Assembly (NCBI RefSeq): GCF_000236585.1
Contig: NC_017278.1
Span: 620,001-684,000 of the forward strand
Source of the DNA: Thermus sp. CCB_US3_UF1
Lineage (GTDB): Bacteria > Deinococcota > Deinococci > Deinococcales > Thermaceae
Direction: 5' to 3'
DNA: 64,000 nucleotides
Shown: piece after piece, positions 3,545 to 6,364 of the stretch
How positions within the stretch are numbered: position 1 is the stretch's first letter
How the letters are laid out: each line of letters starts with the position of its first letter
Notes under the pieces: generated by a model
What the model was told of the DNA's origin: nothing
Database searches by the model: none
The model's input: the letters and a program-made list of their open reading frames with translations, nothing else
Program-made: the position numbers and the translations under genes

Positions 3545-4174
3545 CTAGCCGCGCAGGGCTAAGAGGAGAAGGACCAGGACCAGGTAAACCAACACCCTAA
3601 GGGCGGCCTGGCGGCGGGGAAGGCGCTTGGGGCTCGCCCTCATGGCGCCCTCCGCCACCACCCCGGCGATGCCCGCCAGGATGAAGAGATCCCCCGGGCT
3701 CACCGCCTTGCGCAAGGGGGGCAAGGGGATCACGTCCCCGAGAAAGGGGAGCCGGCTGCCCTCTTCCAGCAGGGTATGCACCGCATCGGCCCGGGTTTTG
3801 AGGGCTTCCTCCCATCCCTCCACCCCGGCGCGTTCCAAGGCGGCCAGGCTCACGGGCATGTGCCCCCCGTTGGCGAAGATGGCCAGGGTGTTCAGGGAAA
3901 GCCCCAGAAGGACAAGGTAAAGGCTTCTCAGGTGGCGGTTTTGGTAGAGGCCATACCCCACCAAGAGGAGGACCAGGCCTTTGGCCAAGGGCCCGGCCCA
4001 CTCGGGGGCAAACCAGCCCCGGTAGGTGCCGTAGGCCAATCCCCCTTCGGCCAGGGCAGCCAGGAGGAAGGCCCAGGCAGCCCTAAGCTCTATCCCTCCG
4101 AGGTCCTTTGGCCGGGCTCCGAGGGCGAGGGCAAGTCCGATGCCGAAGAGTGCGGCGGCAAGGTAGAGCGTGAT
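3545..4174 (-). CDS. DUF5317-type membrane protein, apparent ATC start
   Basis: Function unknown; small integral membrane protein of the DUF5317 type found in Deinococcota and Firmicutes. The first ordinary start codon (TTG 4039) would remove the first membrane helix. The frame continues upstream through a typical membrane start (LYLAAALFGIGLALALGARP) and reaches an ATC codon at 4174 that is preceded at 7 nt by AAAGGAGGG, with no ATG, GTG or TTG available. From there the protein is 209 residues with about four or five helices and a loop carrying NGGHMPVS, a motif I associate with this family. The first 85 nt overlap the end of the HD-GYP gene. Either ATC is used, or one base was lost or misread. 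Confidence 0.68.
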   Translation of the reverse strand: MTLYLAAALFGIGLALALGARPKDLGGIELRAAWAFLLAALAEGGLAYGTYRGWFAPEWAGPLAKGLVLLLVGYGLYQNRHLRSLYLVLLGLSLNTLAIFANGGHMPVSLAALERAGVEGWEEALKTRADAVHTLLEEGSRLPFLGDVIPLPPLRKAVSPGDLFILAGIAGVVAEGAMRASPKRLPRRQAALRVLVYLVLVLLLLALRG

Positions 4175-5520
4175 ACCGATCCCTCCTTTGCGGCCAGGTA
4201 GGCTTCGCGGTCGCGCCAGATGGGGTTCTGGTGCCAGAGCTCGGTGAAGAGCTGGACCAGCTTGGGGTCGAACTGGTGGCCGGAGGCCTCCTGGACTTCC
4301 TTCAGGGCTTCTTCCGAGGTCTTGGCCTTGCGGTAAGGCCGGCCTGCGGTCATGGCCTCATACGCATCGGCCAGGCCCACGATGCGCGCTTCCTCCGGGA
4401 TATCCTGCCCGGCCAGGCGTTCCGGATAACCCCGGCCGTCCCAGCGCTCGTGGTGGTAGAGGATCACGTTGTAGACCAGGGCATCGAAGGCCACCTTTTT
4501 CGCCGGGGAGAGGAGTTTGACGCCCTTGGTGGTGTGGCTTTGGATGAGGGCGTATTCCTCGGGGGTGAGGCTTCCGGGTTTGAGGAGAAGGGCTTCGGGG
4601 ATGGCGATCTTGCCAATGTCGTGCAACCTTGCGGCCCGGTAGATTTCCTGCGCCTTGGCCTCGTTCTTGTAATGAGCCCGGGCCAGGTCGCGGGCGATAT
4701 CCGCCACCCGTTCGGAGTGGAAACGGGTTTCCTGCTCCTTGGCCTCGAGGGCGTTCATCAAGACTTCCAGGGTGGTGTCAAAGGCCTGTTCCAGGCGTAC
4801 TTTCTCGTCCCAGTAGTAGCGGCTGTAGTAGAGGGGAATGAGAAAGAAGAGCACCGTCCACCCCCCCCAGTTGCCGATGAGGGGGGTTTCGTAGGCGCGG
4901 GCTAATAAGAGGGCTAGAGGAGACAATACAAGGTAGCTAAGAGCTACCCATCCAAAGTTTTTGCGCCAAATCTCACGTAAAGGAGTTTGCGTGGAAAAAT
5001 ATATAACTGTTGTGACCAAAAATGTGTTAACTACAAAGAAAACTAAGGCAGATAAAGCTATACCAACCCCAGCGGAAAGATTTAAATGACCCAGATAAAG
5101 GGGATTTTTTTGAAAGAAAAGCCAGGTTAAAGTAGCTAGAGCTGTAGCTAAAGCATCTTGAGAACGATTAAACAGTTGCTTATACCATATATCGCCTCTA
5201 GGTTGAAAAAGAAAAGACCATAGGGGCACAAGCCAGGGAGGTGCCAAAACCATAAAGGCCAAGGCAAAGATAAAGAGTTGACTCACGCTGGCACTGAGTG
5301 GAAGGCGAACCTCCAAGCGCACACTCCAGAAGATGAGCAGGGCCCAAAAAATTAGATCCCAAAGACTTAATCTAGAGGACTGTTGAAAAGCATGAAGAAG
5401 GTATAATTCTAACCCAACAAAAAATAGAAACGTAGTCAAAATTAGGGCAAAGACTTTAAAAGGAGGCAGTTCCAGTACAAATTTCTTAGTTCCAAGAGAA
5501 AAACTGAGGGTTGCAAGCAT
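4090..5520 (-). CDS. Membrane-anchored HD-GYP cyclic-di-GMP phosphodiesterase
   Basis: Predicted to degrade cyclic-di-GMP in response to a signal sensed at the membrane. From ATG 5520 the protein has 476 residues: about seven hydrophobic segments (residues 15-240) and a C-terminal HD-GYP domain (about 250-445) with the metal motif HDIGK (300-304) and HHERWDGRGYP (356-366). A TATACT box lies 10 nt before this ATG, suggesting an almost leaderless mRNA; an upstream TTG at 5583 is in frame but has no support. Base composition changes sharply near 4900: the membrane half is AT-rich with foreign codon use, the HD-GYP half is normal Thermus. The last ~29 residues (Ser/Pro-rich) read out of frame through DUF5317 and are probably not family sequence. 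Confidence 0.85.
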   Translation of the reverse strand: MLATLSFSLGTKKFVLELPPFKVFALILTTFLFFVGLELYLLHAFQQSSRLSLWDLIFWALLIFWSVRLEVRLPLSASVSQLFIFALAFMVLAPPWLVPLWSFLFQPRGDIWYKQLFNRSQDALATALATLTWLFFQKNPLYLGHLNLSAGVGIALSALVFFVVNTFLVTTVIYFSTQTPLREIWRKNFGWVALSYLVLSPLALLLARAYETPLIGNWGGWTVLFFLIPLYYSRYYWDEKVRLEQAFDTTLEVLMNALEAKEQETRFHSERVADIARDLARAHYKNEAKAQEIYRAARLHDIGKIAIPEALLLKPGSLTPEEYALIQSHTTKGVKLLSPAKKVAFDALVYNVILYHHERWDGRGYPERLAGQDIPEEARIVGLADAYEAMTAGRPYRKAKTSEEALKEVQEASGHQFDPKLVQLFTELWHQNPIWRDREAYLAAKEGSVSRSTLPPHSSASDLPSPSEPGQRTSEG

Positions 5521-5583
5521 TTCGTGTCCAAGTATAACATGCCCTACTGAAATTCGGTTGGAGAGATAAATAGCCAGAAACAA

Positions 5584-5623
5584 TAAGCTAAAGTTGGCCA
5601 GTTAACTGGCCAACTTTAGCTTA
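5584..5623 (-). terminator. Perfect 40-bp palindrome, terminator of the peptide gene
   Basis: A 20-bp arm and its exact reverse complement meet without a spacer (centre GTTAAC, 5601-5606). On the minus strand it starts with the stop codon of the peptide gene and is followed by TTGTTT, fitting an intrinsic terminator. Being symmetric it could stop transcription both ways. It is moderately AT-rich, unlike the GC-only hairpins elsewhere in the window. Confidence 0.6.
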
Positions 5624-5710
5624 CTTCCAGTGGAAGCTGGCCCCAGCCGCAAGCCCAAGAGCCACCAGAGAACCGAGCAGAGCCAAAACCTTAGCAACGA
5701 GCTTCTTCAT
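5621..5710 (-). CDS. Short secreted-peptide-like gene (29 residues)
   Basis: Not a family I can name with certainty. From ATG 5710 the peptide is basic at the start (MKKLVAK), then hydrophobic (VLALLGSLVALGLAAGA) and ends SFHWK. That is a complete signal peptide with an A-G-A cleavage site which would release the pentapeptide SFHWK; the leader also resembles those of AgrD-like cyclic lactone autoinducers, but there is no Cys and no acidic tail. AAAAGGAGGG precedes at 7 nt (an ATG at 5716 touches the ribosome site and is less likely). It has a consensus promoter and ends inside a perfect palindrome. Its neighbour downstream is the membrane HD-GYP protein. Coding status is inferred from signals alone. 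Confidence 0.62.
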   Translation of the reverse strand: MKKLVAKVLALLGSLVALGLAAGASFHWK

Positions 5711-5766
5711 CTTCATCCCTCCTTTTCTCCAGCTTCCGGGGGTTCGGCCCCGTTTGCTTGCCTTTC

Positions 5767-5795
5767 ACTTTAGGGGGGTGTGTCAATGCTGTCAA
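5767..5795 (-). promoter_or_regulatory. Consensus promoter of the peptide gene
   Basis: TTGACA (5790-5795) and TAAAGT (5767-5772) are separated by exactly 17 bp, giving a start near 5760 and a leader of about 50 nt. Two further TTGACA hexamers lie at 5781-5786 and 5829-5834 on the same strand, so overlapping promoters or an activator site are possible. Confidence 0.7.
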
Positions 5796-6169
5796 GAGGG
5801 GAAGAATAGGCATCAACACGATTAAAAATGTCAATACTGTTACTAGTTTTTGGAAGTGGTCAGATTACCACTACCCAGCCTAGCACACTTCTGGCCAGCT
5901 GGGTAGTGCTTCCGGCCCAGGGGGGAACCTTCCGGGTTGGGGGGGAATACCCTAACCAATAAAAGGAGCCGCGGGGCGAAGACGCCCAGCGCGGCTTCCC
6001 GAACACGCCCGCTTGAAATGCACCCCGAAATTCACCGGCAATATCCTGCAGAATGTTCAGCGCCCGAATGCAATGCCCCAAATACTACCCCGGAATCCGA
6101 AGGTTTCTTTCAGGTTCCCACCCCCTTCTAGGGGTAGTTTAGCAAAAAGGGCCGTTTGGCAATAGGCAC
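5796..6169. other. Atypical stretch without a convincing gene
   Basis: This stretch has unusual composition for the window. It holds an 11-bp inverted repeat with an 18-nt loop (5869-5879 and 5898-5908) and an orphan terminator (5956-5995). A minus-strand open frame (5860-6081, TTG start, 73 residues) has non-Thermus codon use, no ribosome site, and is cut by the terminator hairpin; it may be a gene remnant. A plus-strand frame at 5937-6131 is low-complexity and not credible. Together with the AT-rich HD-GYP half this looks like acquired DNA beside the tRNA genes. Confidence 0.4.
5956..5995 (-). terminator. Orphan intrinsic terminator
   Basis: On the minus strand GCCGCG and CGCGGC pair around a second helix GGGCG/CGCCC with a four-base loop (5968-5995), followed at once by TCCTTTTATT. 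This is the most canonical intrinsic terminator of the region, yet no recognised gene ends at it: the tRNAs upstream have their own terminator. Confidence 0.6.
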
Positions 6170-6210: not shown

Positions 6211-6286
6211 TGGTGCCGAGGGGCGGAATCGAACCGCCGACACTGCGATTTTCAGTCGCATGCTCTACCAACTGAGCTACCTCGGC
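6211..6286 (-). tRNA. tRNA-Phe (GAA)
   Basis: The 76-nt minus-strand sequence folds as a standard cloverleaf: acceptor GCCGAGG/CCTCGGC, D arm with AGCTCAGTTGGTAGAGC, anticodon loop CTGAAAA with anticodon GAA, T arm GGCGGTTCGATTCCGCC, discriminator A and an encoded CCA. It follows tRNA-Asp after a single base, so both are cut from one transcript. Confidence 0.97.
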
Positions 6287-6287
6287 G

Positions 6288-6364
6288 TGGCGGCCCCGAC
6301 GGGACTCGAACCCGCGATCTCCCACGTGACAGGCGGGTGTGTTAACCAACTACACCACGGGGCC
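6288..6364 (-). tRNA. tRNA-Asp (GTC)
   Basis: A 77-nt cloverleaf: acceptor GGCCCCG/CGGGGCC, anticodon GTC in the loop CTGTCAC, T loop TTCGAGT, discriminator G and an encoded CCA. First gene of the two-tRNA operon. Confidence 0.97.

Follow-up and report, generated by a model that had tools for sequence, protein, structure and literature searches.

A short gene in Thermus very likely encodes the own signal, or a partner, of a membrane enzyme encoded next to it, in which a MASE9 sensor domain is joined to an HD-GYP phosphodiesterase domain (MASE9-HD-GYP). This reading follows from the charge of the last residue of the encoded peptide, which shifts in step with that of 2 loops of the MASE9 domain, L1 and L3. 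The locus was found in a window of 64,000 nucleotides (the whole stretch of DNA that was analysed), which lies within the Thermus genome that was searched (2.26 Mb, two contigs). A gene for a DUF5317 membrane protein, as judged from gene order and co-occurrence, is the regular third partner of this pair.

Organization of the locus

The features of the locus, in window coordinates and in the direction of transcription, are the following:

5767..5795, minus strand: promoter of the peptide gene, TTGACA-17-TAAAGT; the TTGACA and the -10 are kept, with unchanged spacing, in nearly all of the 26 Thermus loci
5737..5752, minus strand: GC hairpin CGGGGCCGAACCCCCG in the 5' untranslated region, within the conserved stretch CAAGCAAACGGGGCC; near-identical in 26 of 26 Thermus loci
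5717..5726, minus strand: Shine-Dalgarno site AAAAGGAGGG, kept in almost all Thermus loci
5621..5716, minus strand: peptide precursor gene, 31 codons plus stop, with a second Met at 5710; conserved through the Thermales
5639..5716, minus strand: constant, signal-peptide-like leader MKMKKLVAKVLALLGSLVALGLAAGA, ending in A-G-A (pN/pS 0.26)
5624..5638, minus strand: hypervariable tail SFHWK, the candidate mature signal, with an invariant Trp and a last residue that coevolves with the receptor
5584..5623, minus strand: 40-bp palindrome at the position of an intrinsic terminator, overlapping the peptide stop codon; the T-run is weak here
5531..5536, minus strand: probable extended -10 (TG-n-TATACT), which would give a near-leaderless HD-GYP transcript; similar at this spacing in Thermus
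4090..5520, minus strand: MASE9-HD-GYP putative receptor, 476 aa, read from ATG 5520
4813..5439, minus strand: MASE9 membrane sensor domain (PF20972), with a predicted fold like that of ECF S components and NikM
4258..4767, minus strand: HD-GYP phosphodiesterase domain, with HDIGK, HHERWDGRGYP, and ADAYEAM motifs intact
3545..4237, minus strand: DUF5317 membrane protein (PF17248), third partner in the locus, its exact start being uncertain

The peptide frame encodes MKMKKLVAKVLALLGSLVALGLAAGASFHWK, and has 31 codons when read from the first ATG and 29 when read from the second. A first-pass annotation of this DNA, made from the sequence alone, had proposed the promoter, the Shine-Dalgarno site, the 29-codon frame, and the 40-bp palindrome, and all 4 were found where it had placed them. 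The promoter is the sole sigma-70-like match between positions 5300 and 6300. At the same place, the window, like most Thermus loci, contains 2 TTGACA-like hexamers three bases apart (TTGACAGTATTGACA), which, together with the almost invariant untranslated stretch, suggests a site for a regulator or a function of the RNA. A search of the whole window against Rfam returned nothing but two tRNA genes, which lie on the minus strand upstream of the peptide gene (6214-6364) and whose anticodon loops were read by eye as those of Phe and Asp. Apart from itself in reverse, the palindrome had no further match in the genome. Relatives carry an intrinsic terminator with a T-run and a different stem sequence at the same place, and among the Thermus terminators, structure and fixed position are kept while the sequence changes.

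The first-pass annotation had also put an HD-GYP gene beside the peptide gene, starting 60-70 bp on, and the presence of this gene was borne out. Its start is probably ATG 5520, approximately 100 bp past the peptide stop, and not TTG 5583, since in relatives a TG-n-TATnCT-like -10 is conserved a short way ahead of the gene, with an ATG following it by no more than a dozen bases or so. We infer that peptide and receptor are made as separate transcripts.

The receptor is predicted to be a c-di-GMP phosphodiesterase. Its catalytic half was matched by HD_5 / HD-GYP (E 1.8e-44) and by the structure 4mcw (Z 23.3), and H300, D301, H329, H356, H357, and D385, along with the GYP motif, are invariant in 21 sequences. 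The sensor half scored 87 bits against PF20972, for which the curated cut-off is 24.3. In an AlphaFold2 model of the receptor (mean pLDDT 83.9), HD-GYP structures were matched over residues 240-442, while residues 19-222 matched members of the S-component superfamily (NikM2, Z 14.5, over 19-215; FolT, Z 12.8, over 50-210; RibU, Z 11.7; ThiT; and PanT), at Z values near the level where helical bundles match by arrangement alone; Foldseek returned S components at probability 0.95-0.99. The repeated matches to a single superfamily, the strand pair of L1, and the helix pattern make it likely that MASE9 has the ECF S-component fold. In the model, the membrane part is an S-component-like bundle flanked on both sides by an additional hydrophobic helix, giving 7 or 8 crossings, so that the seven helices originally counted are one of 2 options. 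In S components, the loops L1, L3, and L5 close the ligand pocket; in the receptor, these are residues 66-81, 104-113, and 176-190, respectively. In most species, the last part of the receptor is a low-complexity tail rich in Ser and Pro (4090-4190), which overlaps the start of DUF5317.

The DUF5317 gene directly follows the receptor gene in nearly all loci, overlapping its end. DUF5317 was detected in 63 of 111 Deinococcota genomes, which is almost the set that contains MASE9. The 4 additional genomes with DUF5317 are drafts, and at least 3 of these have a contig that starts inside or beside the receptor gene; in one genome (G035), DUF5317 is present and unlinked to the receptor. Among 14 named control genomes, MASE9 and DUF5317 were matched only in Thermus composti and Thermotoga maritima. 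DUF5317 is uncharacterised and carries the invariant motifs GG-x-MPV, D-x-x-H, and S-x-GD. A structural model of it, of moderate confidence, had no meaningful match in the PDB.

Distribution and design of the peptide precursor

Sequence conservation confirmed that the peptide gene is real. By tblastn, the peptide was found in 26 of 27 Thermus genomes (E <= 1.6e-9), each time just upstream of an HD-GYP gene. A profile built from 15 peptides detected it in 60 of the 111 Deinococcota genomes at E <= 3.8e-8, followed by a gap up to the next match at 0.009; such a distribution sets the frame apart from a chance one. Reading of the loci, which covered the Thermales in a genome-contig scan, placed the peptide upstream of MASE9-HD-GYP in other Thermaceae and in family f4 as well; it occurs throughout the order, nearly always in one copy. 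No relatives of the peptide were found in plasmids and phages, and no Pfam or NCBIfam family matched it at E <= 10 (HMMER filters applied).

MASE9, too, was found in 60 of the 111 genomes, and the 2 sets of genomes differ in 4 members. One of these (G018) has lost both the peptide and some 140 residues (~140) from the start of the receptor, and another (G082) has a weak MASE9 match in a different architecture. The remaining 2 (G069 and G043) contain the peptide and gave no MASE9 match; as the peptide lies near a contig end in both, and another contig of G069 begins inside the receptor gene, these look like assembly breaks. Loss of the peptide frame from strains that keep the HD-GYP gene, the pattern that the first-pass annotation had named as refuting its proposal, is not what these genomes contain: the peptide is conserved alongside HD-GYP, an outcome in favor of that proposal.

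Within the precursor, conservation is divided sharply. Counted from the second Met, the first 24 residues are constant, with residues 17-24 invariant in the 26 Thermus genomes and nearly so across the order, while the last 5 residues are hypervariable around a near-invariant Trp. For the two residues before this Trp, pN/pS is 1.05 against the 0.26 of the leader, and the Trp itself is invariant (26 Thermus genomes). The 26 Thermus loci encode 21 different tails and 11 leaders, and 51 distinct tails were counted in 58 loci; order-wide, the Trp position is occupied by W, or by F/Y followed by x-Pro. AGA or VGA closes the leader in all 58 loci, under a search pattern that itself required A at -1 and A/V/S at -3, and by the sequence rule this would be a signal-peptidase-like (-3,-1) site. 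The pheromone-like design proposed at the outset is supported, with a constant leader and a hypervariable carboxyl-terminal tail, which is a mark of signal precursors. Secreted pheromones derived from signal peptides are characterized by these same features: a conserved leader before a variable carboxyl-terminal tail, and, again by sequence rule, a cleavage site with small residues at -3 and -1.

Three Thermus genomes encode a second MASE9-HD-GYP, 41-46% identical, in divergent peptide/MASE9-HD-GYP/DUF5317 loci:

L124, 471-563
L031, 1267-1350
L125, 2330-2440, minus strand

Each of these paralogous receptors has its own upstream short frame, namely MRTLVNSLVWALALVGLAVAAGGGFVW, one ending in LVWALGLVAMAVAAGGGWVW, and MKRLTLISQSLIWALALVGLAVAAGGGWVW, the last of which is separated from its receptor by a TnpB-type insertion. 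The tails of these peptides read GGGFVW or GGGWVW. As the paralogues have kept their own peptides through divergence, the pairing is more than a shared position. At least 2 of the 3 paralogous receptors look frame-broken. The main receptor is also damaged in several Thermus genomes (L157, L158, L123, L028, and L029), where we observed a transposase gene (G026), an assembly gap (G005), a deletion (G018), and broken frames (G003 and G020). Such repeated breakage is as would be expected if the system were dispensable or repeatedly lost.

Coevolution of the peptide tail and the MASE9 loops

The pairing of peptide and receptor extends to their residues. In partial Mantel tests, the distance between tails tracked the distance between MASE9 domains given that between HD-GYP domains (r 0.35, n=43; 0.41 in Thermus), and none of 2000 permutations reached the observed r; in the reverse test, of tail against HD-GYP given MASE9, the value was 0.05. 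The signal is centered on the charge of the last peptide residue and on 2 receptor codons:

5311..5313, minus strand: codon 70 of the receptor (E), within L1; its charge complements that of the last residue of the peptide
5191..5193, minus strand: codon 110 of the receptor (D), within L3; its charge likewise complements that of the last residue of the peptide

Among the Thermus species, all 8 with an acidic tail end have Lys at position 110, whereas none of the 14 with a basic or Gln end does. By phylogenetic regression (PGLS), for which the tree was based solely on HD-GYP and DUF5317, last-residue charge was negatively related to the net charge of L3 (t=-7.9, p=1e-9), and columns 70 (L1), 68, and 110 (L3) were the top three of 123, all passing Bonferroni correction. 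Column 110 was first chosen by scanning Thermus, so that the independent test is the non-Thermus set, in which the relation was recovered for both L3 (p=3e-4) and L1 (p=0.002); for Thermus alone, the value for L3 was p=4e-6. When traits were simulated with an equal number of changes on the tree, 0 of 400 matched the L3 result in either Thermus or non-Thermus. No signal was found between last-residue charge and the HD domain or the opposite-face loops (138-148 and 211-219), and tail residues 25 and 27 had no complementary signal with loop charge.

Individual switches could be read by eye. TAHWE occurs with K110 and R70 within a clade of HWK and HWQ tails, HAAWE occurs with K70 beside HTAWR and HATWR with E70, and the pair DTQWK/GTQWE is accompanied by E70A. 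An independent-pairs sign test for column 110 gave 3 of 3 pairs in the right direction, which is too few pairs for significance. The exceptions at column 70 are L028 and L029, from 2 genomes in which the receptor frames are broken, and column 68 correlates in the like-charge sense, which leaves the contact model incomplete. The sensing of the peptide by the membrane half of the HD-GYP protein, as the first-pass annotation had proposed, is supported in part, by strict pairing of the 2 genes and by coevolution of last-residue charge with the MASE9 pocket loops.

Proposed mechanism and relation to known systems

The explanation that we favor, with reasonable though by no means full confidence, is that the locus is a self-contained one-component signalling pair that leads from a peptide to c-di-GMP without agr parts. 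From its own strong promoter, and bounded by its own terminator, the gene would be transcribed into a message for a precursor of 29-31 residues. The leader would carry this precursor to the membrane, where signal peptidase or another protease would probably free the last 5 residues (SFHWK). The tail would then bind in the MASE9 pocket formed by L1, L3, and L5, with its last residue making the charge contact with L1/L3 that coevolution supports, and the invariant Trp probably anchored in a conserved part of the pocket. Binding may be signalled down the long helix 220-261, changing HD-GYP activity in either direction, while DUF5317 probably aids processing, export, or coupling. PilF of T. thermophilus takes up c-di-GMP at its GSPII-B domain, and twitching and adhesion are lowered when this binding is impaired (PMC11731258). 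It is plausible that pilus function is the output of the locus, in which case the concentration of the peptide would set c-di-GMP and, through the PilF pilus motor, twitching and adhesion.

In its most specific form, in which MASE9 directly binds a linear Trp pentapeptide that acts as a species-specific pheromone and sets c-di-GMP in one step, we offer this explanation tentatively, the case for it falling slightly short of the case against. One question is where the tail would be sensed. In the receptor, Lys and Arg cluster at the N-terminus, in L1, L3, and L5, and past the last hydrophobic helix, while the turn 92-97 and the stretches 138-149 and 211-220 have almost none; mean K+R counts are 1.9 for L1, 3.2 for L3, and 2.5 for L5, against 0 to 0.3 in the three intervening loops of the other face. 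By the positive-inside rule, the pocket of a receptor with eight crossings would face the cytoplasm, opposite to its orientation in the transporters, whereas it would lie outside should that last helix fail to span the membrane. With a cytoplasmic pocket, and a peptide inserted N-in with its tail outside, the tail would have to be re-imported or act before export. Peptides of RRNPP systems are re-imported and read in the cytoplasm. A released pentapeptide that is taken up again by an oligopeptide permease, and sensed from the cytoplasm by the membrane phosphodiesterase, is a sub-case of the explanation above, differing in the place of sensing. It would account for the K/R-rich loops being precisely L1, L3, and L5, on the HD-GYP side if the last helix crosses; canonical S components have these loops outside, although here only the fold was matched. 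We regard this route as doubtful, yet deserving of serious attention.

It is unlikely, somewhat more so than re-import, that the peptide is never released and acts as a single-pass membrane microprotein beside MASE9, its tail a tethered ligand for intracellular tuning only. Counter to release, the leader shows stronger conservation than would be required of a plain signal peptide, with its invariant stretch in Thermus going beyond the needs of secretion; there is one locus copy per receptor, and the contact-type coevolution seen for the tail would be expected of a stable complex just as much. Pointing to release instead are the A/V-x-A leader end in every locus, the fast turnover of the tail, typical of released signals that need specificity, and the separate promoter and terminator, which suggest that more peptide than receptor is produced. 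It is highly improbable that the frame is a leader peptide attenuating the HD-GYP gene, as its position upstream with a terminator in between might suggest, since a separate extended -10 seems to serve HD-GYP past that terminator, the stem sequence is not conserved, no codon run was seen, and the amino-acid coevolution of tail and receptor would be left unexplained. A type I toxin-like or antimicrobial peptide that is merely adjacent to HD-GYP, which size and hydrophobicity would allow, is just as improbable in view of the order-wide pairing, the single copy, the paralogue pairs, and the coevolution with the receptor.

If the one-component signalling pair is real, Thermus and its relatives have peptide signalling without agr parts, coupled straight to c-di-GMP breakdown with no kinase or transcription factor between pheromone and c-di-GMP, in a phylum of Gram-negative type. 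The orphan sensor domain MASE9 would gain a ligand and DUF5317 a context, and the joint occurrence of the 2 would flag this system in further phyla, Thermotogota among them. With coevolving residue pairs at hand, the proposal can be tested at once in T. thermophilus, which is genetically tractable and naturally competent. Our literature search returned no description of this kind of signalling, no peptide pheromone with an HD-GYP receptor, and no report of a peptide that binds a MASE domain; we know of no such ligand either. MASE9 and DUF5317 were not mentioned in the papers searched, which is weak evidence, since most subscription papers lay outside the search.

According to a passage in PMC4187201 that cites Johnson 2005, a peptide-based density response occurs in the thermophile Thermotoga maritima. 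This species resembles Thermus in that both MASE9 and DUF5317 were matched in its genome. We take its density peptide to be TM0504, linked to c-di-GMP and exopolysaccharide, and a MASE9-HD-GYP gene connected with TM0504 is not known to us. With other MASE-domain proteins, the receptor shares the combination of a membrane sensor and a c-di-GMP enzyme. Its predicted MASE9 fold is that of ECF S components (FolT, RibU, and ThiT) and NikM/CbiM. Unlike these, MASE9 is fused to HD-GYP and has no transporter partner, and, to judge from the charges of its loops, it sits in the membrane the other way round; the HD-GYP fusion in particular disfavors a role as an ECF transporter component.

The likeness to AgrD that had been noted initially holds for the general design: as in AgrD/AgrC, a short precursor has a basic start, a hydrophobic leader, and a variable carboxyl-terminal signal, the membrane receptor is encoded within the locus, and signal and receptor coevolve. 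It does not extend further, as Cys is absent, an AgrD-type model was not matched, and the ring residue is not kept. In contrast to AgrD/AgrC, the Thermus peptide has no recognition tail after the signal, and the receptor is a predicted phosphodiesterase rather than a histidine kinase. The absence of an AgrB-like processing enzyme from the window, reported earlier, was extended to the 111 Deinococcota genomes, none of which encodes AgrB. Membership of the AgrD family was rejected on these grounds (no AgrB, no match to the curated NCBIfam model, and no conserved ring residue), and a lactone ring was dropped as well, with no Cys present and the position at which a lactone would require Ser or Thr being Gly in one Thermus and G/D/N/H/E/A/M in many species elsewhere.

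Enterococcal sex pheromones, SHP/ComS, and Phr are carboxyl-terminal peptides of 5-8 residues that are cut from a secretion leader. The Thermus peptide is like these linear pheromones in its short carboxyl-terminal signal, for which cleavage is presumed here. Unlike the pheromones read by RRNPP proteins, it is presumed to be sensed by an HD-GYP protein integral to the membrane rather than by a cytoplasmic regulator, and membership of the RRNPP group was rejected, as the neighbor of the peptide gene is MASE9-HD-GYP, followed by DUF5317, and not a cytoplasmic TPR receptor. As judged from its sequence features, the locus appears to work in the manner of pheromone systems, while being neither an agr nor an RRNPP system.
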